NCBI RefSeq assembly: GCF_029688625.1
Contig: NZ_JARULC010000003.1
Coordinates: forward strand, 62,001-126,000
Length of the DNA: 64,000 nt
Source of the DNA: Qipengyuania marincola
Lineage (GTDB): Bacteria > Pseudomonadota > Alphaproteobacteria > Sphingomonadales > Sphingomonadaceae
Reading direction: 5' to 3'
Shown here piece by piece: positions 13,492 to 30,669 of this stretch (positions are counted from its first letter, which is position 1; each line of letters begins with the position of its first letter). The translations under genes and the position numbers were made by a program. The notes under the pieces were generated by a model, which was not told where the DNA came from, made no database searches, and saw only the letters and a list, made by a program, of their open reading frames with translations.

Positions 13492-13566
13492 TCCCCGATA
13501 GCTCAGCGGTAGAGTAGGTGACTGTTAATCACTTGGTCGTTGGTTCGAATCCAACTCGGGGAGCCA
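13492..13566 (+). tRNA. tRNA-Asn (anticodon GTT), island integration target
   Basis: Cloverleaf with acceptor TCCCCGA/TCGGGGA, D stem GCTC/GAGT, anticodon stem GGTGA/TCACT around loop CTGTTAA (anticodon GTT), T arm GTTGG-TTCGAAT-CCAAC, discriminator G and encoded CCA. From the anticodon loop to one base past the CCA it is repeated at 30623-30669. The gene is thus the attachment site of the 17-kb island to its right and remains intact. Confidence 0.97.
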
Positions 13567-13567
13567 C
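13521..13567 (+). repeat. attL: 47-bp repeat within tRNA-Asn
   Basis: Begins ACTGTTAATCACTTGGTCGT in the anticodon arm and ends GGGGAGCCAC just past the tRNA CCA. It is identical over 47 bases to 30623-30669; the bases flanking each copy differ, which fixes the repeat length. Confidence 0.95.
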
Positions 13568-13631
13568 ACTTTTCTGCGGTTTTCGAGGAAATCGCGAAAG
13601 GCGGAAAATCGCTTAAGCAATCACCGAGTAA

Positions 13632-13970
13632 TCACCGTCTTGCGCGCGGGGGCCTCCCCTTGCGCTTACTGCCAGCGCCGTGACGGATACGGTATAAGCG
13701 AGCGTAGGCCGACCATGGCGAGATACAGTGTCGATCGGCGAAGCGCTTAATGCCGCCATTCGAACTGCTGGCCACCATCAGCTGCACATCAAGGCGCGGG
13801 TTCCAACGGAACTCCTTATTCTCCCGGGGCACGACCTCTTCGACGATCCCGCTTTCCACTTCGGTAAGCGGCCGGACCTTCCCCAGGTCTTCGAGGATCG
13901 CCAGCATCACGTCGTAATCGAGCGTTATCTCTCTAGAGCCGCCCGCGTCGATCGGTGATTGCTGATCCAT
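13632..13970 (-). CDS. hypothetical island protein
   Basis: 112 residues, not recognised. The N-terminal half is acidic (SREITLDYDVMLAILEDL) and includes PLTEVESGIVEEVVP. The C-terminal half is basic (WSAYARLYRIRHGAGSKRKG) and ends RPPRARR, so nucleic-acid contact is possible but not shown. FADRHCISPWSAYARLYR could form a helix-turn-helix-like pair. ATG 13970 is chosen; the only longer start is a TTG at 13988. It is the first gene inside attL, divergent from the PIN-domain gene across 125 bases. Confidence 0.6.
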   Translation of the reverse strand: MDQQSPIDAGGSREITLDYDVMLAILEDLGKVRPLTEVESGIVEEVVPRENKEFRWNPRLDVQLMVASSSNGGIKRFADRHCISPWSAYARLYRIRHGAGSKRKGRPPRARR

Positions 13971-14021
13971 ACCCCTGATATAGGGCAAACTTATATCAAT
14001 GCCTACAGAGACTTACCCTAA

Positions 14022-14048
14022 GGGACGAAAGGGACAATAGGGACGAAA
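14022..14048. repeat. three tandem 9-base repeats in divergent promoter region
   Basis: GGGACGAAA, GGGACAATA and GGGACGAAA follow one another without gaps, about 50 bases upstream of the PIN-domain gene and between it and the divergent 112-residue gene. Short tandem repeats in this place could be an operator, but no regulator can be assigned. Confidence 0.4.
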
Positions 14049-14095
14049 GGCTGGCGGCGTCTTCCGCGTAGGTCTGGATAAGCTATACGAATCTG

Positions 14096-15373
14096 ATGAC
14101 CGAATCCAATATCGTCATCGATGCGAATGTCGTCCTTCACTATCAGCGTATAGACCAGATTGACTGGGTTTCCCTGACGGGGGCGAACCATTGCTCCGTC
14201 ATCGTCGTGCCGGCGCTTATGAGAGAGCTTGAGCGCAAGAAAGCGACGGGAAGTTCGGCTGTCATCAAAAAGCGCGCAGGTAAGGCAGTCGATTTCCTTG
14301 CGAAAAGAATGGACGAACCTGACCCGATCGCGCTGCGTCCAGGCTGCACCTTGTCTTTCCGCGACAATGAACCGCTGATCGATTTTCCGTCCAACCGCTT
14401 GTCGGTCTCGGTTGACGACGACCACTACATCGCGAGCGCGCTTGAAGTGGCGCAAGAGAGCAGACAGCCCACATTTATCGCGTCAGCGGACAGCGGGCTC
14501 AAGCTGAAGCTAAGAGCTCGACCGATTTCGATCCTTGTCCCACCCGAGGCGTATCGCTTGCAAGACGAAGTAGACAGCGAAACCAAAGAACTTCGAGAAG
14601 CGAAGCGTGAGCTCGAGAAGATCAAGAATGCTCGGCCGCGGCTGACCCTTCAGTTCAACGACTGTGAGGGAAAGCTCGAACTGCTATTCCCAGAGAAAAT
14701 TGCGCCGAATATCAGGACGCTTGAAGAGGTGATGCGTGATCACCCATTGAACGAAGTCGGAACCGGAGAGATCACCGCCAGCCCGCTGGGTAAAACTACC
14801 GATCTGTCCTTGCTTGGACAGGCGACGTCGCTGGCTTGGCGCGAACGAGAAAACGAGCGAATTCGTGCGTACTACGATGCCTATGATCAATATTTCTCGG
14901 AATATGAGGCATGGCTTTCGGAGCTCTGCCAGATCGATTGGATCGCCTTCCGGATAGAGAATCTCGGTGGAGCTGCGGCAACCAACGTGGGGATCACTGT
15001 AGCCGCGCCTGAAGGAACTGTTTGGATCGACGAGGATGACATTCCAGATCGGCCTAAAGAGCCTGACAAGCCATCTGCTTTCGCAATCACCAGGATTGAG
15101 CCACTGGCCTATCCCCGCAACCTAAATCCACCAAGGGATGGTGACGTCTATGTGCGAGAAGACGGCAGATCGATTTTCGCGAAATGCGGTCAACTCAATC
15201 CGGGTTGTGGACTCTCGCTCGAGAAGGCCGTCTTAAGGCTTAGCGACAGCGCAATGATCGGAACCAGTTCAAGTTTTCGCACGCGAATATCGTTTACGGA
15301 AGGCGAGCCGATCGAAGGCCAACTACCGTTTGCAATGGTCTCGGGGGGCGTAATCGAAAGAGGCGACACCTAG
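14096..15373 (+). CDS. PIN-domain protein with coiled coil and C-terminal beta-rich region
   Basis: 425 residues. Residues 1-145 look like a PIN nuclease domain of the PhoH-N-terminal type: D9 in VIDANVVLHY, E44 in VVPALMRELERKK, D107-D109 in SVDDDHYIASALE and D132 in FIASADSGLKLK give the acidic metal-binding set. A charged helix (about 152-180, ETKELREAKRELEKIK) follows as a probable coiled coil. The rest (about 180-425) has many beta-type stretches, including FRIENLGGAAATNVGITV, which resembles Ig/CARDB-like folds. No membrane segment or signal peptide is seen. PIN domains usually cut RNA. It sits next to attL, a common place for cargo genes, and converges end to end with the mini-protein operon. 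A defence or toxin role is an inference only. Confidence 0.75.
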   Translation: MTESNIVIDANVVLHYQRIDQIDWVSLTGANHCSVIVVPALMRELERKKATGSSAVIKKRAGKAVDFLAKRMDEPDPIALRPGCTLSFRDNEPLIDFPSNRLSVSVDDDHYIASALEVAQESRQPTFIASADSGLKLKLRARPISILVPPEAYRLQDEVDSETKELREAKRELEKIKNARPRLTLQFNDCEGKLELLFPEKIAPNIRTLEEVMRDHPLNEVGTGEITASPLGKTTDLSLLGQATSLAWRERENERIRAYYDAYDQYFSEYEAWLSELCQIDWIAFRIENLGGAAATNVGITVAAPEGTVWIDEDDIPDRPKEPDKPSAFAITRIEPLAYPRNLNPPRDGDVYVREDGRSIFAKCGQLNPGCGLSLEKAVLRLSDSAMIGTSSSFRTRISFTEGEPIEGQLPFAMVSGGVIERGDT

Positions 15374-15577
15374 TTAAATTCGCTCGTCCAACTCGGAAAG
15401 CACTACGACCGAGCAGGGCGTTCCTGCAAGGGCCAGCCGCTCCAAGGTATTTTTTCGAGCCTCTCCATCCTCCGCTATCACGCAAACGAGCCCGCTCGGC
15501 CGTTCCCGTTCTTCCAGGGCACCGACACGCCGCTGCAGATACCGGCCGTTCACGTTACCTGCTCCACCGGTGTCCAT
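15374..15577 (-). CDS. small coiled-coil-start protein, third of three similar mini-proteins
   Basis: 67 residues, function unknown. After a short lead the pattern YLQRRVGALEER is followed by a hydrophobic strand (GLVCVIAEDGE) and a helix (NTLERLALAG). The layout, a heptad-like RRxxxLE start followed by a short strand, is shared with the next two upstream genes. It is the last gene of the leftward operon and its coding region overlaps the preceding gene by 28 bases, so a later start is possible. The stop abuts that of the convergent PIN-domain gene. Confidence 0.5.
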   Translation of the reverse strand: MDTGGAGNVNGRYLQRRVGALEERERPSGLVCVIAEDGEARKNTLERLALAGTPCSVVVLSELDERI

Positions 15578-15777
15578 TCGATGCGCTGGATCAGCCGAAG
15601 GTCTTCATCGGTCAGGCTTTGTGCACCCTCCCCCTCCAGCTGCCTCATCGCCGCTTCCAGCTGATCAAGTTCGTCATCGGAAAGGCCGACAAGGTTCGGG
15701 CGAAGAAGGCAATTTCCCATCGGTGCGCCGCTCTCGAGAGCAGTCACCCTCGCATCAAGACTTTTCAGGTTACGCAT
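15550..15777 (-). CDS. small coiled-coil-start protein, second of three mini-proteins
   Basis: 75 residues, function unknown. MRNLKSLDARVTALESG matches the RxxxLE start of its neighbours, followed by an acidic helical stretch (LSDDELDQLEAAMRQLEGEG) and LTDEDLRLIQRIEW. It overlaps the upstream mini-protein gene by 8 bases, so translation is probably coupled. Similar small proteins are found beside DUF5681 genes in sphingomonad prophages, which is recalled knowledge and was not checked by search. Confidence 0.6.
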   Translation of the reverse strand: MRNLKSLDARVTALESGAPMGNCLLRPNLVGLSDDELDQLEAAMRQLEGEGAQSLTDEDLRLIQRIEWTPVEQVT

Positions 15778-16428: not shown

Positions 16429-16504
16429 ATCCCTTCACCATTTGCCGATGCACAGCGGGGGCGATATGCTTCCCGCATGCGCAGCTTATGGCGGTTCAGA
16501 TGGG

Positions 16505-19411
16505 TCATTGCGTTCCCAATCCTTTGGTGGCTGAACCCCCATCTGGATTTTTCGCAGGTTCAGCCGCCATTCTGGTGGCCCCAACGTTGAGCGCATCCGA
16601 AATGGCTTTATGCAGGCCAAGCACCTCGGTCGCGATCGCGGGCTCTGCCCGGGCGATCTTCTCGAGCCCATTCATTGCGGACTGAGGGCTAGGCGCCTTT
16701 GCCAGAAGGCGCGCCACCTTCGGCGAGGAGAGGAGCAGTCCGCCGATAACGTCGAGAGCAGATAGACCCAGCCACCACGGATTAGTCGCCGCGCCGACAA
16801 GGGCGCCGCCGCTAGCGAGCGCGCCAATCGTCGACCCGGTATTCGGGAAGTTGACAAACTTGCGCGCTTCTTTCCGTCCGCTGGCCACGGTCGCGAGATC
16901 GTCCAAGGCCTTGCGCAGCTCGCCGCCGAACATTGCACCCTTCGCTCGGTCGGTCATACCCTGCCACTGGGTGAGGAAGCGATCGAGGCTAAAGGTGCTC
17001 TCTGCTGTCTCCGTCCCAGCCGTGGGCTTGCCGAGTCGATCGATGATCGTGGCCCTGACCGTGGCAGCGTCCTCCTTCGGAAGAGCAGCCATGAACTTGC
17101 CCAACTTGGCGCTACGGCGCTTGGTTGCTGCCTCCAGCGCCATCACTACCTCTTCACCCGACTTCGGGTCAGCACCCTTCCGACCGATGAAAGGGACGAG
17201 AACAGTCTCGATAACCTCGAGCCGCTCTTTGTGTGCATCTGCAGCCTGACGATAAGCCCGCGCGGCCCCCTCGCTGCCTGCAGCCACCAGGCTGTCTGTG
17301 ATGTCATCGTCCGCGGCATCCGTGACCATTTTCATCCGGCGTTCCAGATCCGAGCCGGTGAGCCCGTCGTTCAGGAATTCGTCGTTCAACGAGGTACGCA
17401 TGCGCTTGACGCCCTCGACCGGATACGGCTGGTCCAGTTCGGCCCGAAGCTTGCGCATTCTTTCGAGGCCCTTGGCTCCGCCTGGAGTCTGCGCAAGTTC
17501 CGCAATGTGTTCATCCAGAACGGCGCGCGCATTGATGAGGTCGACAGGCCGATCACCGCCCAGCTTGCGGGCCCTTTCGTAAAGCGTGTTCACCTTGGCA
17601 CGACTGCGCTTGATGTAGGACTGCGCGCCCTTCAATGCCGTCTCGCCAGCCGCTTCGACTTCCTGCGAGGTTCCGGCGATCGATGCGATTGCATCCTTGG
17701 CCTTCTCAGCTTCTTCGCTGGTCCGGTTGGCTTGCCGCACAATCATGCCGGCAGAGATCGGCATCTTACCCATGCCACCCGATGCGTTGCGTATGCCCGG
17801 CCCCGCTACGTCCGCAGGCAGTGGGCGGATATTCGAACCGGTGAGGTCGTTCAGGCGGTCTGCAGCCTCGATCATCTCACCACCTTGGCTTCGTGAGGAG
17901 TTTGCCCGACGAGCAGCTAGTTTCTCACCAGCCCGCGAGATTCCGTAACCCAAAGCGCCGCCCGCCGCGGCACCAACGCCAGCCCTGACCGTGCTATCGG
18001 CAAGACCCTCACCGCTACCATAGCCATACAGCGCGCCTTCTGCGGCCGCGACCTTGGCCGCGGCGCGTGCATTGCGAAGGTAGGAACCCGGTATCAATGC
18101 CCCGGTGGGCAATGCACCACCCAACTCGGAAACGGCTGAAGTGATCGGTCTCGCCGCGCGAGCGCGTTCCTGATTGCGACGCACGACATCGCGCTCGGCC
18201 TGGTATGCCGCGCCGACATCATTGCCGGTTGCCAGCGCGCGGACGCCGCCCGCGACGCCCGCAATCTCGTCGCCGAGGTTGAACGTCAGGCCCTGCGCGG
18301 CGTTGATGCCGACCGCGCCGGAGAAACTTTCGGGATCGGCACCGCGCTGGTCGAGCACCTGGTCGAGCGTTGCCTCGTATGCCGCCTGCGCATCCGATGT
18401 GTCGAAACCGGCGTAACGTTGGCCTTGGCGAAGGCTTTCAGCCATTGTGCCAAGCTCTTCTTCGGGTGGCAGCGGAATGTCGAGTTGACCATACAGCGCC
18501 GCGATTTGTGTCGGCGTCACCTGCTGGCCGGAAAGCTGGTTCAGCGAGGCCGTAAGCCGTGCTTCCTTGCTTCCCGAAATGCCGTAGGTTTCTTCGAGAT
18601 AGGCCGCGCGATCAAATACGCTGTCGCTATCGGTGCCGTCCATGCCGAAACGGATGTCGGCCCCGGCGCGGATTGCGTCTTCGGTGGTGGCGGCCCGTGG
18701 GGGCGCCGGCTGCGTGGGCACCTCAAAGAGGCTGATACCATTGGACGCGGGATCCACACCCTCTGCCTCAAGAAGGCCGCTATAAGTGCGCACCAGTTCG
18801 TTGTAGCCTGCCGACCGCGCAATGAGGTTAGATTGCGCGATGCTCGCCATGTCCGCGCGCTGCTTCTGGTTCAGCCGTTCGCCGCTGACGAGGCTGTTAT
18901 AGGCGTTCCGGATTTGCCCTGGCACACCCGCCGCGTTCTGCGCGGTGGCCTGCTCGCCCGCCATGACGGTAGAACCCGGGTCGAGCGACTTCATGAACGA
19001 AAAGACGAGGCCGAGGTCGCCCATCGCCGAACCTTCACGGTTGGCAAGAGCGTTGATTTGCTCGGAGATATTGCGGACTTCGCGAAACTGGCGGACTTCG
19101 GGGTTCGACAGGAATTCTGTGCGAAGTTTTGATGCCCGGTCGAATGCCTGCTCGTCGATTTCGCGCCGCTCGCCGCGTTCTGCACGCCCTTCGGCGGCAA
19201 TGTCCCGACCTTCCGCCCGGTTGTCCCGAGCGCGCTCGTATTCACCTTGCGGATCGGGCACGGTAAACACCGGCTCTGGTCTTGCCTGCGTGGGTCGTTC
19301 GATGAGTTCGTCATTTTCCCAGAACTTGCCCGACGATTTCGTGGCAGGTTCTATTTCGGTGAACTCTGACCATGGGTCACGACTGGTCGGCTGGCTGGTC
19401 GACGTTGCCAT
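16505..19411 (-). CDS. large glycine/alanine-rich phage protein, DNA-ejection/internal-virion-like
   Basis: 968 residues. A disordered start (about 1-40) is followed by a very charged Arg/Glu/Ala region (about 60-110). Long helical stretches come next, then a glycine-zipper hydrophobic segment (about 480-510, VRAGVGAAAGGALGYGISRAG) and more helices. A second hydrophobic stretch (WWLGLSALDVIGGLLLS) lies close to the C-terminus. Size, helix content and glycine zippers resemble internal virion or ejectosome proteins of podovirus-like phages, which form a channel through the envelope. This is an architecture-based assignment, as no catalytic motif (for example a transglycosylase) was found. The start is fixed by TAATG coupling with the upstream ribbon-helix-helix gene. 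It is the only clear particle-type gene in the island. Confidence 0.6.
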   Translation of the reverse strand: MATSTSQPTSRDPWSEFTEIEPATKSSGKFWENDELIERPTQARPEPVFTVPDPQGEYERARDNRAEGRDIAAEGRAERGERREIDEQAFDRASKLRTEFLSNPEVRQFREVRNISEQINALANREGSAMGDLGLVFSFMKSLDPGSTVMAGEQATAQNAAGVPGQIRNAYNSLVSGERLNQKQRADMASIAQSNLIARSAGYNELVRTYSGLLEAEGVDPASNGISLFEVPTQPAPPRAATTEDAIRAGADIRFGMDGTDSDSVFDRAAYLEETYGISGSKEARLTASLNQLSGQQVTPTQIAALYGQLDIPLPPEEELGTMAESLRQGQRYAGFDTSDAQAAYEATLDQVLDQRGADPESFSGAVGINAAQGLTFNLGDEIAGVAGGVRALATGNDVGAAYQAERDVVRRNQERARAARPITSAVSELGGALPTGALIPGSYLRNARAAAKVAAAEGALYGYGSGEGLADSTVRAGVGAAAGGALGYGISRAGEKLAARRANSSRSQGGEMIEAADRLNDLTGSNIRPLPADVAGPGIRNASGGMGKMPISAGMIVRQANRTSEEAEKAKDAIASIAGTSQEVEAAGETALKGAQSYIKRSRAKVNTLYERARKLGGDRPVDLINARAVLDEHIAELAQTPGGAKGLERMRKLRAELDQPYPVEGVKRMRTSLNDEFLNDGLTGSDLERRMKMVTDAADDDITDSLVAAGSEGAARAYRQAADAHKERLEVIETVLVPFIGRKGADPKSGEEVVMALEAATKRRSAKLGKFMAALPKEDAATVRATIIDRLGKPTAGTETAESTFSLDRFLTQWQGMTDRAKGAMFGGELRKALDDLATVASGRKEARKFVNFPNTGSTIGALASGGALVGAATNPWWLGLSALDVIGGLLLSSPKVARLLAKAPSPQSAMNGLEKIARAEPAIATEVLGLHKAISDALNVGATRMAAEPAKNPDGGSATKGLGTQ

Positions 19412-19557
19412 TAGCTTAGCCCCACCTTTTCGCGCACCGCCGTGCGGAGGAATTCGGACAGGTTCATCCCTCGCTCTTCGGCAGCTCGAGCGGCTGCACT
19501 GCGCAGCATGGGAGTAGCGCGAAAGCGGATCAGTTCGTCATGGGTAACACGTTGCAT
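19411..19557 (-). CDS. small ribbon-helix-helix (CopG/Arc-like) protein
   Basis: 48 residues. DELIRFRATPMLRSAAARAA followed by EERGMNLSEFLRTAVREKVG is the strand-helix-turn-helix pattern of CopG-type DNA-binding proteins, which bind as dimers to short direct or inverted repeats. Its TAA overlaps the ATG of the 968-residue gene by one base (TAATG), so it starts that operon. No toxin partner gene is adjacent. It may regulate its own operon; TTTACGG repeats at 19616-19649, just upstream, are candidate sites. The ATG at 19557 is the only good start. Confidence 0.75.
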   Translation of the reverse strand: MQRVTHDELIRFRATPMLRSAAARAAEERGMNLSEFLRTAVREKVGLS

Positions 19558-19677: not shown

Positions 19678-20109
19678 ATGAGTGTTCTTCTTTTTCTTGC
19701 AGCCGCTGTCGTTCCCGCCGGGGTATCGTTCGAATGCACGCCTACCCACGTGTGGGATGGCGACGGCCCCATTTGGTGCGCCGAAGGCCCGCGCGTCCGC
19801 GTCTCCGGCATAGCAGCGCGCGAGACGGACGGAACCTGCCGCCCGGGTCATCCATGTCCCGACGCTTCGCCAGAGGCATCCAAGGCTGCGCTAGTGCGAT
19901 TGCTCGGCACTCCGATAGGGACAGGGCCGCACGGGCACACTCTGGTGCGTGGTCCATCCATGAGATGCGTCTCGACCGGATCGGCTGGCGGGGACAGAAC
20001 GGGCGCCTGGTGCGTATCGCCCAAGGTCGGGGATATATCGTGCGCTATGGTACGAGGTGGCTATGCGGCGCGGTGGGACCGGTACTGGCAAGGAAATCGC
20101 TGCTCATGA
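19678..20109 (+). CDS. secreted SNase-like (thermonuclease family) protein
   Basis: 143 residues with a hydrophobic leader (MSVLLFLAAAVVPAGVSF), so probably exported. Staphylococcal-nuclease-like signals follow: VWDGDGPIWC, RVRVSGIAARET, and RCVSTGSAGGDRTGAWC late in the protein. In classical nuclease the second segment reads R-x-R-L-x-G-I-D-A-P-E; here the calcium-binding Asp is Ala (GIAARE) while the Glu and first Arg remain. Activity is therefore doubtful or uses altered metal binding. Six cysteines suggest disulfides in the periplasm. It overlaps the downstream Excalibur gene by 4 bases (ATGA). Close relatives are common in sphingomonad mobile regions as far as recalled. Confidence 0.75.
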   Translation: MSVLLFLAAAVVPAGVSFECTPTHVWDGDGPIWCAEGPRVRVSGIAARETDGTCRPGHPCPDASPEASKAALVRLLGTPIGTGPHGHTLVRGPSMRCVSTGSAGGDRTGAWCVSPKVGDISCAMVRGGYAARWDRYWQGNRCS

Positions 20110-20477
20110 GGGTGTGGCCGCACCCGGGCGATCGTCGTGAACCAGAATGGCGCATCAAAGCTGAATTTTCAATTCTGGCAGCACTGCACCTATTTATAGC
20201 AGCGCTATTTCTCGCATCGCTATTCGATTCCGCTCCAGCCCAAGGGCACCCTGGCGGGCTCGCGGCGGACGGCTGTCACAATGATCGGAAAAACGGCGGA
20301 CGCCATTGCCACCGCGGACCGAACGCAGGCAAGTCGGCGCAGCCCGCGCGTTCCGGCGACATCTATTTTCCCAATTGTTCTGCTGCCCGCGCGGCTGGCG
20401 CCGCTCCAGTTCGGCGCGGCCAGCCGGGATATGGAAAGCACCTTGATCGCGATGGAGATGGTGTCGGGTGTGAGTAA
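20106..20477 (+). CDS. membrane or secreted protein with Excalibur domain
   Basis: 123 residues. A hydrophobic segment (about 20-38, FSILAALHLFIAALFLASLF) would act as signal or anchor. Then come a His/Cys-rich stretch (GCHNDRKNGGRHCHRGP) and a C-terminal Excalibur motif: FPNCSAARAAG, GQPGYGKHLDRDGDGVGCE. Excalibur is an extracellular calcium-binding motif (DxDxDGxxCE) often found with SNase-like nucleases, and here it directly follows one, translationally coupled by ATGA. A longer in-frame reading upstream exists but has no domain logic, so the ATG at 20106 is used. Confidence 0.75.
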   Translation: MRVWPHPGDRREPEWRIKAEFSILAALHLFIAALFLASLFDSAPAQGHPGGLAADGCHNDRKNGGRHCHRGPNAGKSAQPARSGDIYFPNCSAARAAGAAPVRRGQPGYGKHLDRDGDGVGCE

Positions 20478-22309: not shown

Positions 22310-22374
22310 GTGGTAACGATAGTCCCACAAATAACTTGACGCAAGCTTGTGAGGGGTGGTAACAATAGTCCCAC
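22310..22374. promoter_or_regulatory. duplicated 19-bp operator in the XRE / early-operon divergent promoter
   Basis: GTGGTAACGATAGTCCCAC at 22310-22328 and GTGGTAACAATAGTCCCAC at 22356-22374 differ by one base. Each has GTGG/CCAC ends in dyad. One copy abuts the XRE start codon and the other faces the rightward operon. TTGACG at 22335-22340 lies between them and could be a -35 box for rightward transcription, with the second copy over the -10 region. Confidence 0.65.
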
Positions 22375-23302: not shown

Positions 23303-23725
23303 ATGGCTACCGCTCCCGATTACGAGGCGCTCGATCGCCCCTTCATCCATCCCAACGACATGCCGGACCTGCACGCCCTGCGCGCCTATGGAACCTGCAT
23401 GGAGCCGCTTCTATCCGACGGCTGCGTGCTGGCCTTCGACAAGCGCGAGACGCCCGAGATCGGGGACATCGTCAGCCTGATCTTTACGCGAGAAGCGGCA
23501 CAGCGCTGGAAGCTGCCGGGGCTGGTGAAGAAGCTCGCGATGCCTCTGCCCGCTCTGGATGGCCAAGGTGAAGCTGTCGGCCTGGTCGTGGTGGACCAGA
23601 TCAATCCGCCGCGGCGCTATTGCATCCCGACCACCGATGTCCTGGCCGTTCACAAGTTCGTGGGCGTAGCCGAGAGCACAGGTCCGGGAATGGCCCGCTA
23701 TCGGCCGCAAGCGAAGGAGGCGTGA
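23303..23725 (+). CDS. S24 (LexA/UmuD)-like peptidase domain protein with Cys at the nucleophile
   Basis: 140 residues. YGTCMEPLLSDGCVLAFDKR and PEIGDIVSL match the S24 core (G-x-S-M-x-P then GD-x-V), but Cys32 occupies the position of the catalytic Ser. K76 in LPGLVKKLAMPL lies about where the general-base Lys of LexA/UmuD is found, and VLAVHKFVGV closes the fold. There is no N-terminal helix-turn-helix, so it resembles UmuD more than LexA in layout. It may be a cysteine-using variant, an inactive protease, or a structural copy. It lies 3 bases after the previous gene and 2 bases before the next. Confidence 0.65.
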   Translation: MATAPDYEALDRPFIHPNDMPDLHALRAYGTCMEPLLSDGCVLAFDKRETPEIGDIVSLIFTREAAQRWKLPGLVKKLAMPLPALDGQGEAVGLVVVDQINPPRRYCIPTTDVLAVHKFVGVAESTGPGMARYRPQAKEA

Positions 23726-23727: not shown

Positions 23728-24015
23728 ATGGCGACCCGCTATCATCAATCCGGGGGCGCGACGGCGCTTCCGCTCGGCCTTATCGCGCAAGCGATACCAA
23801 AGCTTCGTCGGAACGATCTGGTTGCACTGACCGAGCGTCTGATCGATCGGCTGGACGAGCTCGACGGCGATCCAGACGAGGAAGACGACGACCCAGCCGG
23901 CCAGTGCGACGAGGATGGCATCAATACCATCGGTCACGCGTCCTATGGCATGCGCGGGCCAACATTTGGCGGGCCGGGGTGCCCTATAAGCGATGATGAC
24001 CATAGCTATTACTGA
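23728..24015 (+). CDS. small acidic hypothetical protein
   Basis: 95 residues. A helical first half (LRRNDLVALTERLIDRLDEL) is followed by a very acidic run (DGDPDEEDDDPAGQCDED) and a low-complexity tail (GPTFGGPGCPISDDDHSYY). AAGGAGG is well spaced before ATG 23728. It lies 2 bases after the S24-like stop, so the genes are co-transcribed. No family recognised; the acidity could indicate DNA mimicry, but that is only a thought. Confidence 0.65.
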   Translation: MATRYHQSGGATALPLGLIAQAIPKLRRNDLVALTERLIDRLDELDGDPDEEDDDPAGQCDEDGINTIGHASYGMRGPTFGGPGCPISDDDHSYY

Positions 24016-24033: not shown

Positions 24034-24603
24034 TTGACCGACCCACAAGCCTCCCTTCCCTTCCTGAGCGCTCCGGTTTCACCACCGGGGCGCTTTGGCG
24101 TGCCGAAGACCCACAAGTTTCAGGCCAGCCTTGCGATGTCCGAAGGGTTCACCGACGCCCCTTGGTGGCAGGCTCTTTACCGGCGGGCCTTCCCCAGCAT
24201 GGTGAGCGCCGTCAGTGTCCGACAGGACGGCTGGGCCCAGCGGGGCGGTATCGATCGCGTGATCACACTCGCTTCCGGTCGGGTCTACACCGTCGACGAG
24301 AAGGTGCGCTCGAACGACTGGCCTGACATCCTGCTCGAGCGTTGGAGCGACGAACAACGAGGCACGCCCGGGTGGATCCAGAAGCCACTGGCCTGCGACT
24401 TCATCGCCTATGCCTTCGCTCCCAGCCGTCGATGCTATCTGTTGCCGGTGGTGCCGTTGCAGCGCGCCTGGCGCCTGAACGGAAGGCAATGGATCGACCA
24501 CTATGGGGAGCGGTTCGCGATGAACCCGGGCTATCGGTCGAGCAACGTGCCGGTGCCGATTGGGACGCTCATGGGCGCGATCGCCGCGGCTATGGTGCTT
24601 TGA
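24034..24603 (+). CDS. hypothetical protein, possible PD-(D/E)xK nuclease
   Basis: About 189 residues from a TTG at 24034; ATG 24136 is the next good start and would shorten it. GGIDRVITLASGRVYTVDEK places D74 in a strand and D88-E89-K90 fourteen residues on. That is the D...(D/E)xK arrangement of the restriction-endonuclease-like fold, and a helix with acidic residues (DILLERWSDEQ) follows. RRCYLLPVVPLQRAW fits a late core strand. Phage islands often encode such nucleases for replication or recombination. The prediction rests on motif spacing only. Confidence 0.55.
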   Translation: MTDPQASLPFLSAPVSPPGRFGVPKTHKFQASLAMSEGFTDAPWWQALYRRAFPSMVSAVSVRQDGWAQRGGIDRVITLASGRVYTVDEKVRSNDWPDILLERWSDEQRGTPGWIQKPLACDFIAYAFAPSRRCYLLPVVPLQRAWRLNGRQWIDHYGERFAMNPGYRSSNVPVPIGTLMGAIAAAMVL

Positions 24604-24606
24604 TTT

Positions 24607-25632
24607 CTACGCACCAATCTGGTCGAGATCGTCGAAAGCCATACTAAGGGTGGTAGCAGGCTTCGGATACGCTCGACGCACCATCTCCTTGAATTGGTGC
24701 CAATTGGTTGCAGCCTTCATCAAGGCAACGACGCCAGCCAGATGGTTTTGCAGTTCGGGCAACCCGTGGCTGGACGTAAGGTGTCGATGTAAATGGTGCT
24801 TTAGTCGCCCCTCTTCATCACGCCCCGCGTAGTCTTCTAGCTCTTCCTTCAATCCAGGACCAAGCCGATCATAGACAAGATCATTCGTCCACGTTCCTAT
24901 AACACCCGGCCGCTTGACCGATGTCGGATCGAATTCCCATCCATTTAGCTCGAAGATGCGCCGATAATAATCATCTGGGAATTGCTTGCGCCAGGGTTGC
25001 AGCTCCTTCGTGAGCCATTGGTTCAAGATTTGCTCGAGAGCATTCCGAGCACGAACTTTTTGGTATCCTGTTGCTTCGTCGACGAGCCCGACGATGCCGA
25101 CGCGGGCCAGCCCCCTGGTGAGAGCTTCGCACTGCTGCGCGATCCGCATCTGCTGCTTTTGCAACGCCCCTGCTTCGCGAGCGGCTAGGACTGCTTCGCA
25201 CAGCTCGACCAATACCTCAGCGTCATAGCCATAGGCCTTGCCCCCAGTAGGGGTGAGAAAGACAAGGGGTGACTGGATTCGCTCGGTCAACTTGTTGCTT
25301 ATAAAAGGATTTATCTTCTTTCGGGATGCAAATAGCTCCAGTCGATTCATGCCAGCGACCATCGAGCCACCTCGAGCCAATCCGAGCCCCTCACTCAGAC
25401 CGCTAGCCGTTAGGACCCGCGTCTCATCCTCAAGAACATAGCAGGGGATCAAGGTATCACCGATCTTCAACGGCTTATCGTGTGATCCGCAGATTGCTCG
25501 GGGCAATGTCGCACGAGAAGGATCAGCTTTTGCCCAACGAGCCTGGGCACCTGCAGCGGCTCGCGCCGACCTCTCTTCCGGCGACAATCTGCTTGCGGAC
25601 GCTTTTCCTGCTTTACTCTGCGGCGAAACCAT
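24607..25632 (-). CDS. P63C domain-containing protein
   Basis: 341 residues. The C-terminal half carries the P63C domain signature GLVDEATGYQ and continues through WTNDLVYDRLGPGLKEELED to a conserved helical end. Before it, GDTLIPCYVLEDETRVLTAS and GGKAYGYDAEVLVELCEAVL fit the N-terminal region of the same family. The N-terminus is basic and Ala-rich. P63C proteins occur on mobile elements and their function is not established. ATG 25632 is chosen for its AGGAG ribosome site; a dyad operator abuts that site. The gene opposes its neighbours on both sides, so it looks like an independent cargo gene. Confidence 0.85.
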   Translation of the reverse strand: MVSPQSKAGKASASRLSPEERSARAAAGAQARWAKADPSRATLPRAICGSHDKPLKIGDTLIPCYVLEDETRVLTASGLSEGLGLARGGSMVAGMNRLELFASRKKINPFISNKLTERIQSPLVFLTPTGGKAYGYDAEVLVELCEAVLAAREAGALQKQQMRIAQQCEALTRGLARVGIVGLVDEATGYQKVRARNALEQILNQWLTKELQPWRKQFPDDYYRRIFELNGWEFDPTSVKRPGVIGTWTNDLVYDRLGPGLKEELEDYAGRDEEGRLKHHLHRHLTSSHGLPELQNHLAGVVALMKAATNWHQFKEMVRRAYPKPATTLSMAFDDLDQIGA

Positions 25633-25643
25633 TGCGCGACTCC

Positions 25644-25690
25644 TGCTAACGGGCGTAAGCATGGCTTATCGATGCTAACGCCCGTTAGCA
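25644..25690. promoter_or_regulatory. long inverted repeat upstream of the P63C gene
   Basis: TGCTAACGGGCG (25644-25655) and CGCCCGTTAGCA (25679-25690) are exact inverted copies of 12 bases. The right half also belongs to an 18-base palindrome, TGCTAACGCCCGTTAGCA (25673-25690). The left arm touches the ribosome site of the P63C gene. The layout suits a dimeric repressor, or an RNA hairpin blocking translation. Confidence 0.6.
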
Positions 25691-25773: not shown

Positions 25774-26004
25774 ATGGCCCGCCTTAAACTCGATTCGGTT
25801 AATGAGTGCGCCCGCCGGGGCTACAACCTGCGCATCACCTGCAGCGGTTGCGGCCGCGCGATCGAAGCGAACGCTGTCCTGTTGACGCAGGAGCTAGGAC
25901 GCCGCGGGGAAAGCATGGCGCTGGAGAAGCTGGAAGAGCGAGCCAAGTGCCGGGAGTGCGGCCACCGGGGCGCTACCGTGATGCCATGCGAGGTAAATTT
26001 CTAG
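25774..26004 (+). CDS. small zinc-ribbon protein
   Basis: 76 residues. CSGCG and CRECG form a pair of CxxC knuckles, so a structural zinc is expected. The N-terminus (LDSVNECARRGYNLRITC) has the plan of short phage zinc-ribbon proteins. ATG 25774 is used. It lies 9 bases upstream of the next gene and is probably co-transcribed with it. Possibly binds nucleic acid or protein; no specific role can be given. Confidence 0.7.
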   Translation: MARLKLDSVNECARRGYNLRITCSGCGRAIEANAVLLTQELGRRGESMALEKLEERAKCRECGHRGATVMPCEVNF

Positions 26005-26013
26005 GGGATGGCT

Positions 26014-26598
26014 ATGGACATAAATTGGGACGCGGTCGCGGCGCTGGGGCAAGTAGCAGGTGCAGTCGCTACCTTCGCAGCGGTAGTGGTTTCACTGCAT
26101 TTGGCTCGCCGATCCGGACGGCCGATCCTTAGGGTCAGTGCGCGAGCGCATATGATTCTGACTGGCGAACATACCGACCATGTCATCACGTTCAGCGTAC
26201 AGAACCTTGGGGATCGCCCAGCCGAAGTGCGTTCGCTCGGCTGGCGGACCGGGTGGTTAAAATGGGGCCCAGACTGGCTCCGATTTAAGTACGCTACGCA
26301 AATGTTTGATGCGCGGCATATGGTACTCTGTCCGCCATACCCGATAGCGCCTGGTAGTGAGGTTTCGAGCTACATTGGCCGCGACAATATGCTCGAACAC
26401 GCTAAGCGATTTGGAAGGACCGGCCCGATATTTACTCGGAAGTCCCCTTGGGGGGTGATTGCGGCAAAGACGATTGTCCTGGCTTACACAGCCGACGGAT
26501 ATACCTTCAAGGGTGAGGTGGATCGACGAACAATTGGCAAGATTGCTGCTGCAGAAAAAGAAGGGCGACTGCTGGGAGACATGGAGAATGGTGGCTAA
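26014..26598 (+). CDS. membrane-anchored hypothetical protein
   Basis: 194 residues. One N-terminal membrane helix (ALGQVAGAVATFAAVVVSLH) is followed by RRSGRPILRVSARA and a beta-rich domain (VITFSVQNLGDRPAEVRSLG). This is the plan of small anchored proteins found widely in bacterial accessory regions, with no assigned function. ATG 26014 has AGGGG at suitable spacing; ATG 26008 is an alternative. It converges on a lipoprotein gene, the stops touching. Confidence 0.65.
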   Translation: MDINWDAVAALGQVAGAVATFAAVVVSLHLARRSGRPILRVSARAHMILTGEHTDHVITFSVQNLGDRPAEVRSLGWRTGWLKWGPDWLRFKYATQMFDARHMVLCPPYPIAPGSEVSSYIGRDNMLEHAKRFGRTGPIFTRKSPWGVIAAKTIVLAYTADGYTFKGEVDRRTIGKIAAAEKEGRLLGDMENGG

Positions 26599-26991
26599 CT
26601 AGTCCAGCCTCACGCATGTCCGTTGGTAGGGGACGCACAGGACCGCCCTCGGATCGCACGCCTCTTCATCATGCTTCGCCAAGGCTACCTTGGCTTTCTC
26701 GCATGCTTCGACGGACGTGAATTCCCTCCCTGGCGCATCCTGCCCCGCAACCACCAGTTCAACCCGTTCGGTCGGATTTACCTCAGGTGCGGTCACGACC
26801 GGCTCTGGTGTCAGGCCAATGCGTTCTTGCTCCTGCTCGAGGAACTGCTGCTCCACGGTCTTTGCTCCAGGCCTCGGCTCGTTCTCCTCGGCCACCGCAC
26901 TTTCCGCTTCTTCGCTACGGAGTTCCCCACACGCGGAAAGGAATAAGGGGGCTGCGCTTGCAAGCGCGAGCAGCTTCCGCCGGTCAATCAT
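26599..26991 (-). CDS. hypothetical lipoprotein
   Basis: 130 residues. MIDRRKLLALASAAPLFLSA leads to a lipobox Cys at 21. An acidic, Pro-rich linker (about 25-85) and a C-terminal part with four cysteines (VEACEKAK, EEACDPRAVLCVP, RTCVRLD) suggest a small disulfide-bonded head. The twin arginine in the leader could allow Tat export, but the context is short. GGAGG precedes ATG 26991. No family recognised; lipoproteins on phages sometimes block superinfection, which is only a possibility here. Confidence 0.65.
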   Translation of the reverse strand: MIDRRKLLALASAAPLFLSACGELRSEEAESAVAEENEPRPGAKTVEQQFLEQEQERIGLTPEPVVTAPEVNPTERVELVVAGQDAPGREFTSVEACEKAKVALAKHDEEACDPRAVLCVPYQRTCVRLD

Positions 26992-27041
26992 ACACCCCTC
27001 CGATACGTGCCTTGCATTAGAGGCAGCACCCGGCGCGTTGG

Positions 27042-28628
27042 TCAAGACCGCGTCCAGAACAGATGGTCCGGTTCACCTAGTCCGTCCCAGAATGGCTGCA
27101 TCTTCGGCATGCTTCCACGCCGGTAACGATCCGGCACCCCCCACGATATCCATTCGGCCCGATCCCCGTGCATATCGATGCGTCGGACCTCGCCCAGTCG
27201 ATCGATCAGACCAAGGTGCTCAATGGCCGCATCCAAGGCCTCAGCCTTCCGCATGTCCGGAAGGGCGGACTTGTGTGGCGACCGCTTGAGTTCGCGCTTG
27301 TTGATGGTCTTCATCCCCGTCTTGAGAATGTAACGGGCAAGGACAGCAGCGTTGCGTTCCGAGCGAGGCAGAGCAGCATCACCATAGACCCGCAACGCCA
27401 TCGGCTTCGCATAGTCTTCCACCCATTCGGCTGCTGCAGCCACAGAGCGCGCCGAGACTTCGCGCGGCTCCGATCCGCCGTTAATTGCCCAGCTGATCAA
27501 TTCCGCGACCAGCGACAGGCGCAGGACTGCACCGTCCATCTTGCCAACGAACGACTTGAAGAGCGCACTGGCATCGCTATCGAGTTCCGCGTTCTCCTTT
27601 GCCCATGCTTCGAAGAGATCGGCGGCCTGGGCGGTCAGAGGCAGAACGACTGGCGCAGCCTTGCCATCAGCGTCGACGGCCCAGCCGAGACTGTCGAGGC
27701 GGCGATAGATGTGCTCGAGCTTTCCTGGGTCGGCTGGTCTCGTCGGGCGAGCGAAGCCTTGCTTCTCCGGCCAGGCCCAGAGGAAACGGGCCACAAGGCC
27801 GTCGTCCGGCCCGTTGAGCAATGCATCGGCCAGTTTGGCCGGCTGGATGCCTCCAAGGACCGAGACGCCATTGAACGGGATGGAAAGCGGTCCAGCGAGG
27901 TTCTTGCGGTCGATAACGAACGGGCGCCCGCCGTAGGCTTCCAGCCAGAACGCACGTCCGCCTTCCGCATAGCGATCAAAGCTGGTCAGCCATCCCGCGA
28001 GCTCGTCCCGGAAGTGCAGCGTTCCCATCGGGTTTGCGGCGAGGATTGCGCCAAGTGCTTCGGGCGTGGCGTCCATGACGATTGGCCGCCGCCTACCGGG
28101 TTTCTCTGGCTCCGCTGCTTGCTCGGGCATCGGCGGGGGTTCCCGCCCATCCTTTACCGCGGCCTTAACCTCCTTCTCCCATTCCGCGCGGCTGGCCTTC
28201 GCCCACTCGCGCGCGCCTTCATAGGCGTGCAAGTCCTCCTTATGCGAATCGGCATGGTCTTGCTCGATTGCACGCATCGGATCGGAAATCGAGTCGAGGG
28301 ACGGCGACTTGCGAGAGCTGGGATCTCCGACGGCCCCGAACCAGAGGATGCACGGCTCACTCCATGCGGCCGTATCGAATGGGCGCACCTTTCGCTTCCC
28401 ACCGACGAGGCTGGCGGCGCATGCAAGAAAGCTGATACCCGAGTAATCAATCGGGGTGGACGTGCCTGCAGCGAAGTCCTGAAGCATCGGCCAAGCGTCC
28501 CCGAAGAGACCGGCTGGCATCGGCACCGGGGGCCGGCGTCCGGCATCGAGGATGGATTTGTCCGGTGCGGACCAGACGGTGCGGTCTTCAGCTTTCTCGA
28601 AGCTGGTATGAAGAGGGGACACGCTCAT
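27042..28628 (-). CDS. DUF3987-type replication protein
   Basis: 528 residues of the DUF3987 family, associated with phage and integrative-element replication (primase/helicase-like). A Walker-A-like loop GAVGDPSSRKS lies at 98-108, close to SLVGGKRKVRPFD. Later family sequence includes GTLHFRDELAGWLTSFDRYA, RPFVIDRKNL and SVLGGIQPAKL. Its start overlaps the stop of the broken Toprim gene by 4 bases (ATGA), the usual order being Toprim-primase then DUF3987 ATPase. It would open DNA for island replication or copying. With the Toprim gene truncated, autonomous replication is doubtful. Confidence 0.8.
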   Translation of the reverse strand: MSVSPLHTSFEKAEDRTVWSAPDKSILDAGRRPPVPMPAGLFGDAWPMLQDFAAGTSTPIDYSGISFLACAASLVGGKRKVRPFDTAAWSEPCILWFGAVGDPSSRKSPSLDSISDPMRAIEQDHADSHKEDLHAYEGAREWAKASRAEWEKEVKAAVKDGREPPPMPEQAAEPEKPGRRRPIVMDATPEALGAILAANPMGTLHFRDELAGWLTSFDRYAEGGRAFWLEAYGGRPFVIDRKNLAGPLSIPFNGVSVLGGIQPAKLADALLNGPDDGLVARFLWAWPEKQGFARPTRPADPGKLEHIYRRLDSLGWAVDADGKAAPVVLPLTAQAADLFEAWAKENAELDSDASALFKSFVGKMDGAVLRLSLVAELISWAINGGSEPREVSARSVAAAAEWVEDYAKPMALRVYGDAALPRSERNAAVLARYILKTGMKTINKRELKRSPHKSALPDMRKAEALDAAIEHLGLIDRLGEVRRIDMHGDRAEWISWGVPDRYRRGSMPKMQPFWDGLGEPDHLFWTRS

Positions 28629-28855
28629 GCGCGGCCTCCTTTCTGGAGTTGTTCGTTGAAATCTTTGAAGCGAGGATCCGGAAAGACGGTCTTCACCGAG
28701 AGACCCAGACCCGAATATCGATCGGCTGCCCGGTTCGCCGCATTCTGGCCGGCAGGGTCATTGTCTCCCGCGATCCAGATACGGCTGACGCTCTCCGGCA
28801 AATCCACCTTGCCGAGATTGGACGTGCCGGTCCTCTGACGACCAATTCTCTGCGT
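28625..28855 (-). pseudogene. 5'-truncated Toprim-domain primase fragment
   Basis: The open frame covers only the C-terminal part of a Toprim primase: GTSNLGKVDLPESVSRIWIA, GDNDPAGQNAANRAADRY and KDFNEQLQKGG. In such proteins an N-terminal zinc-finger and catalytic region precede it. Here an in-frame TGA at 28856-28858 and an unrelated upstream gene replace them. A GTG at 28807 could start a 60-residue remnant. The D-x-D of GDNDPAG is intact but the rest of the active site is missing. Confidence 0.7.
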
Positions 28856-29111
28856 TCAGATCAGTCGAAACGGTAAACCGATCGTCCTTTAGCGACAGCG
28901 TGCCGCCCAGAGCCCAGACCTCGACAGGCACCGACCAGTTGCGGACGGTCTTCGGCTCGTCTTTCTGGAAAAGAGCAAAGCGGGCGATACACCGGAACCC
29001 ACCTACCACTAGCGCCGATATGACGCTTCCATTCATTCGGTCCAAGTTCTCGCCATACTTCGGCGTCAGAAGCTCAATCGCCCTCTCGGTTCTGATTAAA
29101 ACGTCACTCAC
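28758..29111 (-). CDS. hypothetical protein, 3' part overlaps the Toprim remnant out of frame
   Basis: 117 residues from GTG 29111, which has GGAGG five bases upstream; ATG 29135 is an alternative. The first 90 residues look like a real protein (VSDVLIRTERAIELLTPKYG, SALVVGGFRCIARFALFQ). From about 28855 downward the sequence is the Toprim gene read in another frame, so the last 30 or so residues are probably not original. A deletion joining two genes would explain this. Function unknown. Confidence 0.5.
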   Translation of the reverse strand: MSDVLIRTERAIELLTPKYGENLDRMNGSVISALVVGGFRCIARFALFQKDEPKTVRNWSVPVEVWALGGTLSLKDDRFTVSTDLNAENWSSEDRHVQSRQGGFAGERQPYLDRGRQ

Positions 29112-29201
29112 ATTCGCCTCCGCTGGCGACCGCATTTAGAAGGTGACGCGACAGGCGGTGCGGTTCCGCCGTTCGGGAGCTACCCTAGCCGCGTCACCAG
29201 C

Positions 29202-30476
29202 TCATGCGCGGCGCAAAGGCACCACGTTGTCGTCCTCGCCCTCGCCCGAGACCAGCGCAGCGATATGCGCCGACCATGCGGACAGAGCTGCGATCTTTTC
29301 GGTCTTCCATTCATGGCGCTGGTAGACGCCAGCAACCCCTGACTTGGAAGCGCCGACGTGATTGAGAATCGCTTCGGTCACTTCGAACCGTACATCGAGG
29401 CGCTGCATGCCTGTCGCGAGGGTCCTGCGAAGATCGTGAAATGTCCAGTGGTCGATGACGATCGGCTCATCTTGTGCCTGGTTGAGTTCATCGACGAACT
29501 TGTCGAGACGCGCCTTGATCTTGGAGAACCCGTTGATCGGCTTGTCGCCTGTAGTGGTGAATACCGGTCCGCGTTTCGGCCACTCTGCTTCATCCTTCCC
29601 GTGCTGCTCTTCGGCAATCTGGTCGAGTTCCTCGAGCATGAGACCGACTAGCGGGACCGTATGCGGCTTCCCATTTTTCGTCTGCACCCCCTTCAGCGTC
29701 CACATGCCATCCCCACGATTAAGTGCGGACCAAGCCACTCTCCCGGTTTCGCCCAATCGCTGTCCGGTCAGGATCAGGCTTCGAATATAGGGCCCGTACG
29801 GGTACCCCAGCTTGAACGTCGCCTGCCATACAAGCTTGAGCTCTTCGTCGCTCAGCACGCGATCGCGCTCGATCGGGCCGGCGGGCGCCTTCATTCCAGC
29901 AATCGGGCTTACCTCGACATCCCCTTCGTTGACCGCCCAGTTGAAGAGCTTCCGCAGGGTCGCGAATGTGTTCTTCTCGGTCGCAGGCATAGCCTTTAGC
30001 GGGCGCAGCACGTCCCCGATGTCCTTCTTCGTGATCTGGGTGAGCGGCTTGTCTTTCAGTTCCGGTACAGCGTGTCGCTCGAGCGCGGCCAGAGCCTCAC
30101 TGTGCGTGCTCTTCCAATTGTGACGCAGGTATTCGTCGTGAAAGCGCTGACAATAGGCATCAAAGGCAAGTGTGCGCGCTTCCTCCCTGCCCTGCATCTT
30201 CAAGGATTGCGGATCCTCGCCCTGAGCAACCTTTGCTGCCAGCTGCTCTGCGATCTTCCGCGCCTGGTCAGGCGTGAACTTCCCATGCTTCCCGATTGTG
30301 TATCGACGAACTTTCGATCCGCGGCCACCCATGCGGTACTGATAGACGTAGCTTTTGCTTCCGGTCGGCGTGATCTTGAGGCCGAAGCCGCTCACCCGGT
30401 CGTCCCACAGATAGGCATCTTTCTCGCCGGCATTAGCGCCATCGACCGCCGCCTTCGTGATCCTCTTATTAGCCAT
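29202..30476 (-). CDS. tyrosine recombinase / integrase of the island
   Basis: 424 residues. An N-terminal DUF4102-type arm-binding domain (about 1-95, with ITPTGSKSYVYQYRMGGRGS) is followed by a SAM-like core-binding domain (about 105-190). The catalytic domain has R240 (TGQRLGE), H347-x-x-R350 (FHDLRRT), H373 and the nucleophile Y385 (VYQRHEW). All catalytic residues are present. Such integrases recombine within tRNA genes, matching the tRNA-Asn repeat. ATG 30476 is chosen because conserved sequence (ANKRITKAAVDG) begins there. It reads away from attR, 146 bases inside it. Confidence 0.95.
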   Translation of the reverse strand: MANKRITKAAVDGANAGEKDAYLWDDRVSGFGLKITPTGSKSYVYQYRMGGRGSKVRRYTIGKHGKFTPDQARKIAEQLAAKVAQGEDPQSLKMQGREEARTLAFDAYCQRFHDEYLRHNWKSTHSEALAALERHAVPELKDKPLTQITKKDIGDVLRPLKAMPATEKNTFATLRKLFNWAVNEGDVEVSPIAGMKAPAGPIERDRVLSDEELKLVWQATFKLGYPYGPYIRSLILTGQRLGETGRVAWSALNRGDGMWTLKGVQTKNGKPHTVPLVGLMLEELDQIAEEQHGKDEAEWPKRGPVFTTTGDKPINGFSKIKARLDKFVDELNQAQDEPIVIDHWTFHDLRRTLATGMQRLDVRFEVTEAILNHVGASKSGVAGVYQRHEWKTEKIAALSAWSAHIAALVSGEGEDDNVVPLRRA

Positions 30477-30520
30477 GTGATTACTAGACACCTTCCCAGC
30501 TATCACCCGAACGCCGAATG

Positions 30521-30607
30521 CAGGAACGGGCAGGAACAGCTACGCAGGTAACCTTATCGGAAAACGTAGGATTTTAGCAATAGCGGAACGAGTAGGAAAA
30601 CGACGGA
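30521..30607. repeat. short repeats between integrase and attR, candidate arm sites
   Basis: CAGGAAC occurs at 30521 and 30531, and three related 14-mers at 30558 (CGGAAAACGTAGGA), 30584 (CGGAACGAGTAGGA) and 30594 (AGGAAAACGACGGA) match one another at 11 of 14 positions in the pairings checked. Spacings of 10 and 26 bases suit sites for an integrase or excisionase beside attR. Weak evidence. Confidence 0.3.
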
Positions 30608-30622
30608 CGGTCCGACCATAGA

Positions 30623-30669
30623 ACTGTTAATCACTTGGTCGTTGGTTCGAATCCAACTCGGGGAGCCAC
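30623..30669 (+). repeat. attR: 47-bp copy of the tRNA-Asn 3' half
   Basis: Identical over 47 bases to 13521-13567, including the T arm and CCA. It lacks the tRNA 5' half, so it is not a gene. It marks the right end of the island. Confidence 0.95.

Follow-up and report, generated by a model that had tools for sequence, protein, structure and literature searches.

The 17.1-kb island integrated in a tRNA-Asn gene of Qipengyuania marincola was analysed within a window of 64,000 nucleotides (positions 62,001 to 126,000 of contig NZ_JARULC010000003.1), the window being the whole stretch of DNA that was studied. On balance, the island appears to belong, in partly decayed form, to a family of satellite-like integrative elements found in sphingomonads, which would be satellites of short-tailed phages (podophages) equipped with an ejection protein of their own. 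Its insertion is defined by the following features:

13492..13566 (+), tRNA-Asn(GTT), the integration target, found with ARAGORN
13521..13567 (+), left attachment repeat, the 3' part of tRNA-Asn, from repeat comparison and genome search
30623..30669 (+), right attachment repeat, from repeat comparison and genome search
29202..30506 (-), tyrosine integrase, phrog_1 match at E 5e-55, 53% identical to the integrase of locus L171

The two direct attachment (att) repeats were identical at 47 of 47 positions with a mismatch directly beyond both ends, and when up to three mismatches were allowed the 47-mer was found at these two sites only in the 2,988,443-bp genome. Of 20 congeners searched 19 had the locus, and in nine of these 19 loci the NAD kinase gene, tRNA-Asn and the TauE-like gene were contiguous, indicating that the repeats enclose 17.1 kb of inserted DNA. 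The GC content of the island was 59.8%, compared to 63.5% for the flanks. The reading frame of the integrase was open and contained the motifs TGQR, HDLRR, NH and VYQR, which we take to be the catalytic motifs. The initial annotation had described a 17-kb island in tRNA-Asn, exact 47-bp attachment repeats and a complete tyrosine integrase at the inner right border, and all of this was borne out. Two features by which phage satellites are recognised, site-specific integration with an own integrase and the lack of a complete virion gene set, were both found in the island.

The largest gene of the island encodes a homologue of podophage ejection proteins, which is surrounded as follows:

15550..15777 (-), 75-aa small protein after DUF5681, 37% identical to the same-place gene of locus L180
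15770..15979 (-), 69-aa small protein after DUF5681, 34% identical to the gene just past DUF5681 in locus L166
15976..16428 (-), DUF5681 protein of 150 aa, a marker of the family with a possible small-terminase-like role
16505..19411 (-), 968-aa homologue of podophage ejection (pilot) proteins, P22/Pam1 type
19411..19557 (-), 48-aa ribbon-helix-helix (RHH)-like protein, similar to RHH proteins of the G062 and G058 elements listed below

The 968-aa protein matched 14 phage records. It was 26% identical over 89% of the query to a protein of Pseudanabaena phage Pam1, 32.5% over 60% to a Pan3 protein annotated as ejection protein and 36% over 43% to Sphingopyxis phage VSN-002, while short stretches were matched in other phage records. 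It was also 38–39% identical to a protein of prophage G251 from sphingomonad genomes. None of 23 pattern matches in IMG/VR was confirmed as a close relative. The 48-aa RHH-like gene runs into the ejection gene, its stop codon and the start codon of the latter overlapping as TAATG. In the available text of PMC8954989, P22/Pam1- and T7-type ejection proteins act in the virions of short-tailed phages.

Among 298 genomes of the bacterial family, 19 contained a DUF3987 relative and 12 an ejection relative, the genome of the window being counted in both. Elements were bounded from these matches and from the tRNA-Asn sites of congeners, and were found via shared genes rather than as an unbiased sample. 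This gave eight further att-bounded elements of 17.0–28.9 kb in five kinds of tRNA gene (Asn, Lys, Gln, Thr and Arg):

G062 element, tRNA-Lys, 20.1 kb
G249 element, tRNA-Gln, 26.5 kb
G248 element, tRNA-Gln, 21.8 kb, repeat 17/18 matching, ends less certain
G282 element, tRNA-Gln, 28.9 kb, repeat 17/18 matching, ends less certain
G058 element, tRNA-Gln, 23.3 kb, 14-bp repeat, ends less certain
G123 element, tRNA-Thr, 17.0 kb
G295 element, tRNA-Arg, 17.6 kb
G315 element (Qipengyuania citrea), tRNA-Asn, 17.3 kb

All eight relatives encode an integrase and one or more ejection-type proteins, and the set includes different integrases and tRNA sites. The element of Q. citrea is a different one with a like layout, located in the same tRNA-Asn as the island of the window.

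The type of ejection protein varies within this layout. Six of the eight relatives encode a T7-gp16-type ejection protein of approximately 1600 aa, and these are 53–85% identical to one another. The one scanned, from G062, contains an N-terminal SNase domain and an internal-virion-protein match. The ~1600-aa protein matched 58 phage records at low identity; among the 20 matches listed 30–46% of its length was covered, 11 were annotated as internal virion protein D and four more as internal virion protein. The G123 element encodes three ejection-type proteins resembling a gp7/gp20/gp16 set, and G295 encodes one protein of 968 aa; this belongs, like the proteins of the window and G123, to phrog_5880, a family of no assigned function. 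RHH genes related to that of the window lie upstream of the ejection gene in G248, G282, G062 and G058, not always adjacent to it, and in G062, G249, G315 and numerous further loci the ejection gene has DUF5681 and short proteins beside it.

Three further observations were made on the ejection genes. An IMG/VR contig of 51,436 bp (L085) contains helix-turn-helix (HTH), RHH, 347-aa and 1812-aa T7-type ejection genes in the order seen in the sphingomonad elements, and is probably a further member of the family. Genome G061 contains an ejection-type gene on the chromosome (G061:C1:2947823-2949304) and one of equal score on a 38,127-bp contig (G061:C2), maybe a prophage that is also extrachromosomal. 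Some relatives have PHROG matches to tail-spike, fibre or virion structural proteins (L056:10251-12104, L051:5050-7737, L057:1342-4238).

The absence of head and packaging genes was examined in the island and its relatives. No PHROG match to a terminase, portal or capsid family was obtained for 20 of the 24 listed open reading frames (ORFs) of the island, those outside the scan being the 48-, 76- and 95-aa proteins and the primase fragment. The claim of the initial annotation that capsid, portal, terminase and tail genes are lacking consequently stands for the terminase, portal and capsid families and has to be amended for the virion as a whole, the largest gene being homologous to a virion protein, the podophage ejection protein. 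The eight relatives contain 175 called genes, comprising 74 in marker-set clusters, 96 under 85 representatives and five added later (two across the edge of the fetched stretch and three shorter than 50 aa). PHROG scans were run on 88 proteins (the 85 representatives and three G123 ejection genes; best 25 of 44 families), 76 of these were rescanned down to 3e-5 (best 25 of 31 families), and the remaining 12 together with the five later-added genes gave 17 proteins for which 15 of 15 families were viewed. Together the scans cover all 101 genes of the relatives outside the marker clusters, with six weak families not viewed, and revealed no terminase, portal or major capsid/head family. Named matches were to DNA ejection, endolysin, lytic tail, tail-fibre, regulator, sigma-factor and primase families, in addition to two families labelled unspecifically as 'virion structural protein'. 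As a positive control, the same approach detected small and large terminase, portal, major head protein and DNA-ejection protein in G251, making this prophage complete by PHROGs. The phrog_2 terminase was found in none of the nine elements, though it is present in seven of the nine genomes, and a custom terminase hidden Markov model built partly from by-eye labels also gave no match in the elements. Relatives with full structural genes in the same island, which the initial annotation had named as the sign of a degraded prophage, were sought and not found among the eight att-bounded relatives.

Selection was computed for one pair of relatives, G248 and G282. The dN/dS ratio was 0.11 for the ejection and primase genes alike, 0.08 for the gene next upstream of the ejection gene, 0.09 for DUF3987 and 0.13 for the integrase, with a 300-aa protein highest at 0.21. 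The ejection gene of this pair is under purifying selection, and the genes compared are not debris. Comparison of the window DUF5681 gene with that of L180 gave a dN of 0.16 with dS saturated.

A scan of GTDB genomes for DUF5681 revealed 43 loci, of which 23 were at 53–80% identity; 21 of these belong to Sphingomonadales genera and two to one unclassified alphaproteobacterial metagenome-assembled genome. The G315, G062 and G249 elements are included again in this set. Within approximately 10 kb, a span that cuts many of the elements, an ejection-type match was found at 15 of the 23 loci (one a 93-aa fragment), an integrase at 12 and a primase or DUF3987 gene at 6, and no locus matched the marker set of TerL, portal and major capsid protein. 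Four assemblies contain two close loci each (L164/L176, L169/L170, L168/L174, L179/L181), and some cells may thus carry two DUF5681 elements. The N-terminal part of the DUF5681 proteins of four relatives was 36–46% identical over 37–58 aa to the gene preceding a large terminase recognised by eye in prophage G089. A fold search in BFVD gave one match at 6e-4, the protein being unnamed; DUF5681 and a single viral protein of the homeodomain phBC6A51 type were also returned, with poor E-values. A small-terminase-like role is possible for DUF5681.

The replication module is better preserved in several relatives than in the window, where it is represented by three features:

27042..28628 (-), DUF3987 protein (residues 1-472), with an in-frame fusion near 27213 to the C-terminal part of the relatives' next gene
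28628..28831 (-), primase remnant, about residues 235-300 only of the relatives' CHC2/Toprim primase
14020..14050 (+), intergenic array of three 9-bp iterons of the AAGGGACGA type, from iteron searches

The DUF3987 gene thus remains, as had been annotated, though in fused form. Five of the six DUF3987-bearing relatives (G248, G282, G058, G249 and G062) contain two facing 9-bp arrays of the AGGGACNWW type just 3' of DUF3987, at the start of the following gene, in an arrangement resembling a replication origin. We presume the two iteron regions per element to be comparable to ori and crr of P4. The iteron stretch is read in different frames, as R-D-I-R-D-K in G248 and G-T-I-G-T-K in G249, which indicates that the conservation is at the level of DNA and not of protein. 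In G062 GGCAC replaces GGGAC in both facing arrays and mostly also in a further array after the ejection gene, a pattern as expected if one protein binds all of them. Single arrays are located near the ejection end in several elements, as at 14020-14050 in the window, and in the whole window genome AGGGACNNNAGGGAC occurs only within that array. The exact 9-bp-spaced form, which is absent from G315, G062, G123 and G295, was found 16 times inside elements and not at all in approximately 206 kb outside; the form was defined after the data were seen, making this count partly post hoc and the whole-genome search the independent check, and one of the 16 arrays (G248, 13787) is degenerate and probably due to chance. 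A first strict search for GGGAC clusters had matched two of the nine elements and two places outside. The use of the iterons as a general marker was rejected, because the AGGGAC triplet is common in viral contigs that encode no relatives of DUF3987 or the primase.

Of the replication functions that would be looked for in a satellite, several relatives have primase, DUF3987 and iteron pairs, and the window keeps only the fused DUF3987 and one array. The facing iteron pair is missing in the window because of the in-frame fusion of DUF3987 to the C-terminal part of the next gene. An AlpA-like gene is present in five of the eight relatives, and no AlpA-like ORF was found among the 282 ORFs of the window. 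With alpA, the origin-like iterons and the greater part of the primase missing, the window copy has probably lost self-replication and controlled excision and would not be mobile unaided. G315 and G123 are also without primase and DUF3987, so that some members may do without the module.

The remaining genes of the island are as follows:

13632..13988 (-), 118-aa protein, 39% identical to a homologue directly before the small and large terminase genes of the complete prophage G251
14096..15373 (+), 425-aa PIN-domain protein, cargo (Pfam PIN_4, E 2e-4)
19678..20109 (+), 143-aa protein, phrog_18798
20281..21399 (+), HEPN-domain protein, cargo (domain search)
21468..22085 (-), 205-aa protein, no family match in Pfam-type and PHROG scans
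22082..22330 (-), 82-aa Cro/CI-type HTH regulator, also in relatives
22457..23299 (+), 280-aa protein, relatives in the G315, G249 and G248 elements
23303..23725 (+), S24/LexA-like protein, weak match under the Pfam cut-off
23728..24015 (+), 95-aa protein, relatives in the G248, G058 and G062 elements
24034..24603 (+), 189-aa protein, 71–82% identity in the G123 and G248 elements, 55–64% in four IMG/VR contigs
24607..25662 (-), P63C-domain protein
25774..26004 (+), 76-aa protein, zinc-ribbon-type matches, all weak
26008..26598 (+), 196-aa protein, no family match
26599..27045 (-), 148-aa protein, no convincing family match

The family phrog_18798 of the 143-aa protein is also that of the N-terminus of the G062 T7-type ejection protein, there called SNase by Pfam. 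The conserved D..DEK of the 189-aa protein suggests a nuclease fold. The P63C protein was 75–80% identical to proteins of two IMG/VR contigs (57.7 and 42.7 kb), among the closest matches of any island gene.

The tRNA-Asn site appears to be an integration hotspot of the genus, with inserts of ~5 to >20 kb downstream of it in eight congeners (L224-L231). The insert at this site in G308 contains an integrase and an AlpA-like gene and does not match the ejection marker set. A second stretch of low GC content (58–60%) at 51000-58000 of the window, around tRNA-Arg at 56159-56235, is possibly another insertion.

Several results weigh against a family of helper-dependent satellites. The ~1600-aa T7-type protein occurs in 70 IMG/VR loci, one of which (L086) has a capsid match. 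P63C relatives were found in seven IMG/VR contigs, in L003 beside small and large terminase and portal matches, and in L157, one of the four contigs with a relative of the 189-aa protein, this lies beside a terminase match; relatives in phage contigs indicate that island genes are exchanged with phages, and the whole island may be of phage origin. DUF5681 is present in only five of the nine bounded elements and DUF3987 in seven, and four of nine strong DUF3987 relatives (G199, G120, G161 and G214; window excluded) had no ejection relative in the stretches covered by tblastn; G161 has tail-like genes by eye, and phrog_2 finds no terminase on that contig. The DUF5681 fold search revealed no small terminase, and no PDB match at E<=0.001. 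At least 120 viral stretches contain the AGGGAC triplet, and none of the 80 loci examined encodes DUF3987 or primase relatives. Comparison of the window ejection gene with that of G251 gave a dN/dS of 0.32 at a dS of about 2, a high divergence at which the ratio is weak evidence. The phrog_2 search misses the putative large terminase of G089 and alone is no proof of absence, a limit that is offset by the completed PHROG scans; the large terminase, portal and capsid labels of G089 rest on reading by eye, and the putative large terminase matched nothing in a solved-structure search and had no blastp similarity to the G251 terminase. Finally, no helper prophage was found in the window genome. The portal family phrog_156 had no match there, and the only phrog_2 match (L223, G000:C2:678000-688200) contains two TGA codons in the matched stretch and lies in a cluster of terminase, portal, protease and capsid-like genes that, read by eye, is like a gene transfer agent.

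Part of this evidence would also fit a worn-down P22-like podovirus prophage, stripped of its head, packaging and tail genes but retaining the integrase, the replication genes and the ejection gene. The complete prophage G251 encodes homologues of the 968- and 118-aa proteins, the P63C and 189-aa relatives lie in phage contigs, some beside terminase matches, and the primase is truncated and DUF3987 fused to its neighbour. However, the head-less layout recurs in eight bounded relatives with differing integrases and tRNA sites, the ejection gene of two of these (G248/G282) is under purifying selection, the G251 ejection gene is followed by tail genes with no DUF5681 match seen there, and none of 63 pattern matches in IMG/VR was confirmed as a DUF5681 relative. 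Neither remnants of head or packaging genes nor complete relatives with the same backbone, as expected of a degraded podovirus, were found, the 118-aa protein being nearest to a remnant. A worn-down prophage is therefore unlikely, and the island is best assigned to a satellite-like family of the Sphingomonadales. Of the two origins proposed in the initial annotation, a satellite or a worn-down prophage, the recurrence supports the first at the level of the family, while the island copy is itself worn, with no alpA, a primase remnant and a fused DUF3987.

A resident anti-phage island, in which the ejection protein interferes with podophage virions rather than serving its own transfer and the PIN and HEPN proteins are further defence cargo, would explain the presence of these two domains and an ejection gene that stays open while the replication functions of the window are damaged. 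It is nevertheless quite unlikely: PADLOC identified no known defence family among 10 island proteins scanned, and several relatives keep integrase, primase and iterons, pointing to mobility. An ordinary integrative island that acquired its phage genes through recombination and has no helper relationship would suit the very variable gene content (85 unassigned protein clusters among the 175 genes of the relatives) but is improbable: RHH, ejection and DUF5681 genes follow a similar order in several relatives, another species has an element of this layout in the same tRNA-Asn, and five relatives have facing iteron arrays.

Fuller members of the family integrate in tRNA genes via their tyrosine integrase, and most encode a DUF3987 protein, to which a CHC2/Toprim primase and origin-like iterons are often added. 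If these are podophage satellites, growth of a short-tailed helper phage would cause the element to excise and replicate, its own ejection protein, perhaps also the small-terminase-like DUF5681, would join the helper assembly, and the satellite DNA would be packaged in helper heads and injected with the satellite-supplied pilot. Use of the helper's head and motor would be the simplest account, because the ejection gene is kept by selection and head or motor genes were not found. A bolder proposal, to which we give somewhat less than even weight, is that the ejection proteins are exchangeable and the virions chimeric, with helper head and motor, the injection machine of the satellite and sometimes its tail spikes, one slot being filled by a T7- or P22-type pilot, possibly according to the kind of helper.

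When compared with known satellites, the closest by gene core were the phage-inducible chromosomal minimalist islands (PICMI) of Vibrionaceae, which in the available text of PMC10803314 have a core of integrase, AlpA (PF12728 in the model) and DUF3987 primase, no capsid-remodelling genes and a prototype of six genes at fis. Integrase, AlpA and DUF3987 occur together in four of the eight relatives. In contrast to PICMI as described there, these elements are 17–29 kb, lie in tRNA genes and have ejection and sometimes tail-spike-like proteins. The island has integrase and DUF3987 and was not filed as a PICMI because alpA was not found and the site is tRNA-Asn, not fis. Primase/helicase-based replication and AlpA are shared with P4 satellites as far as outlined in PMC8628076, while the capsid-size redirection of P4-like satellites was not seen in these elements; no match named psu, sid or delta was obtained for 20 of the 24 island ORFs against PHROGs. 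In the part of PMC10690885 consulted, some Staphylococcus aureus pathogenicity islands (SaPIs) carry their own small terminase, a part that DUF5681 could play here in likeness to SaPIs and other phage-inducible chromosomal islands (PICIs), and capsid-forming PICIs carry capsid and both terminase genes, whereas capsid, portal and terminase genes were not found in these elements. The same part does not mention ejection proteins in satellites, and the ejection protein gp44 of 80alpha is reported, in the available text of PMC7290940, as dispensable for SaPI transduction. The ejection genes of the island family are homologous to those of the podophages P22/Pam1 and T7, but lie in elements without a head, portal or large-terminase match. 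The accessible parts of the open-access literature searched contained no report of ejection proteins being carried by satellites, nor of any satellite in Sphingomonadales.

The satellites described so far in that literature take over heads or packaging, and none is described there as having an injection protein of its own. If the proposed role is true, entry into the next cell would also be worth controlling, with the satellite influencing which cells receive its DNA, and the tail-spike or fibre-type proteins of relatives could alter the host range of the particles. The family would provide a natural system of swappable ejection proteins for studying assembly of the podophage ejectosome, and would account for the recurrence of such tRNA islands in sphingomonads. 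Virus catalogues seem to hold few such elements, with no confirmed DUF5681 relative in IMG/VR, yet the contig L085 there resembles them in gene content and has a T7-type ejection gene.

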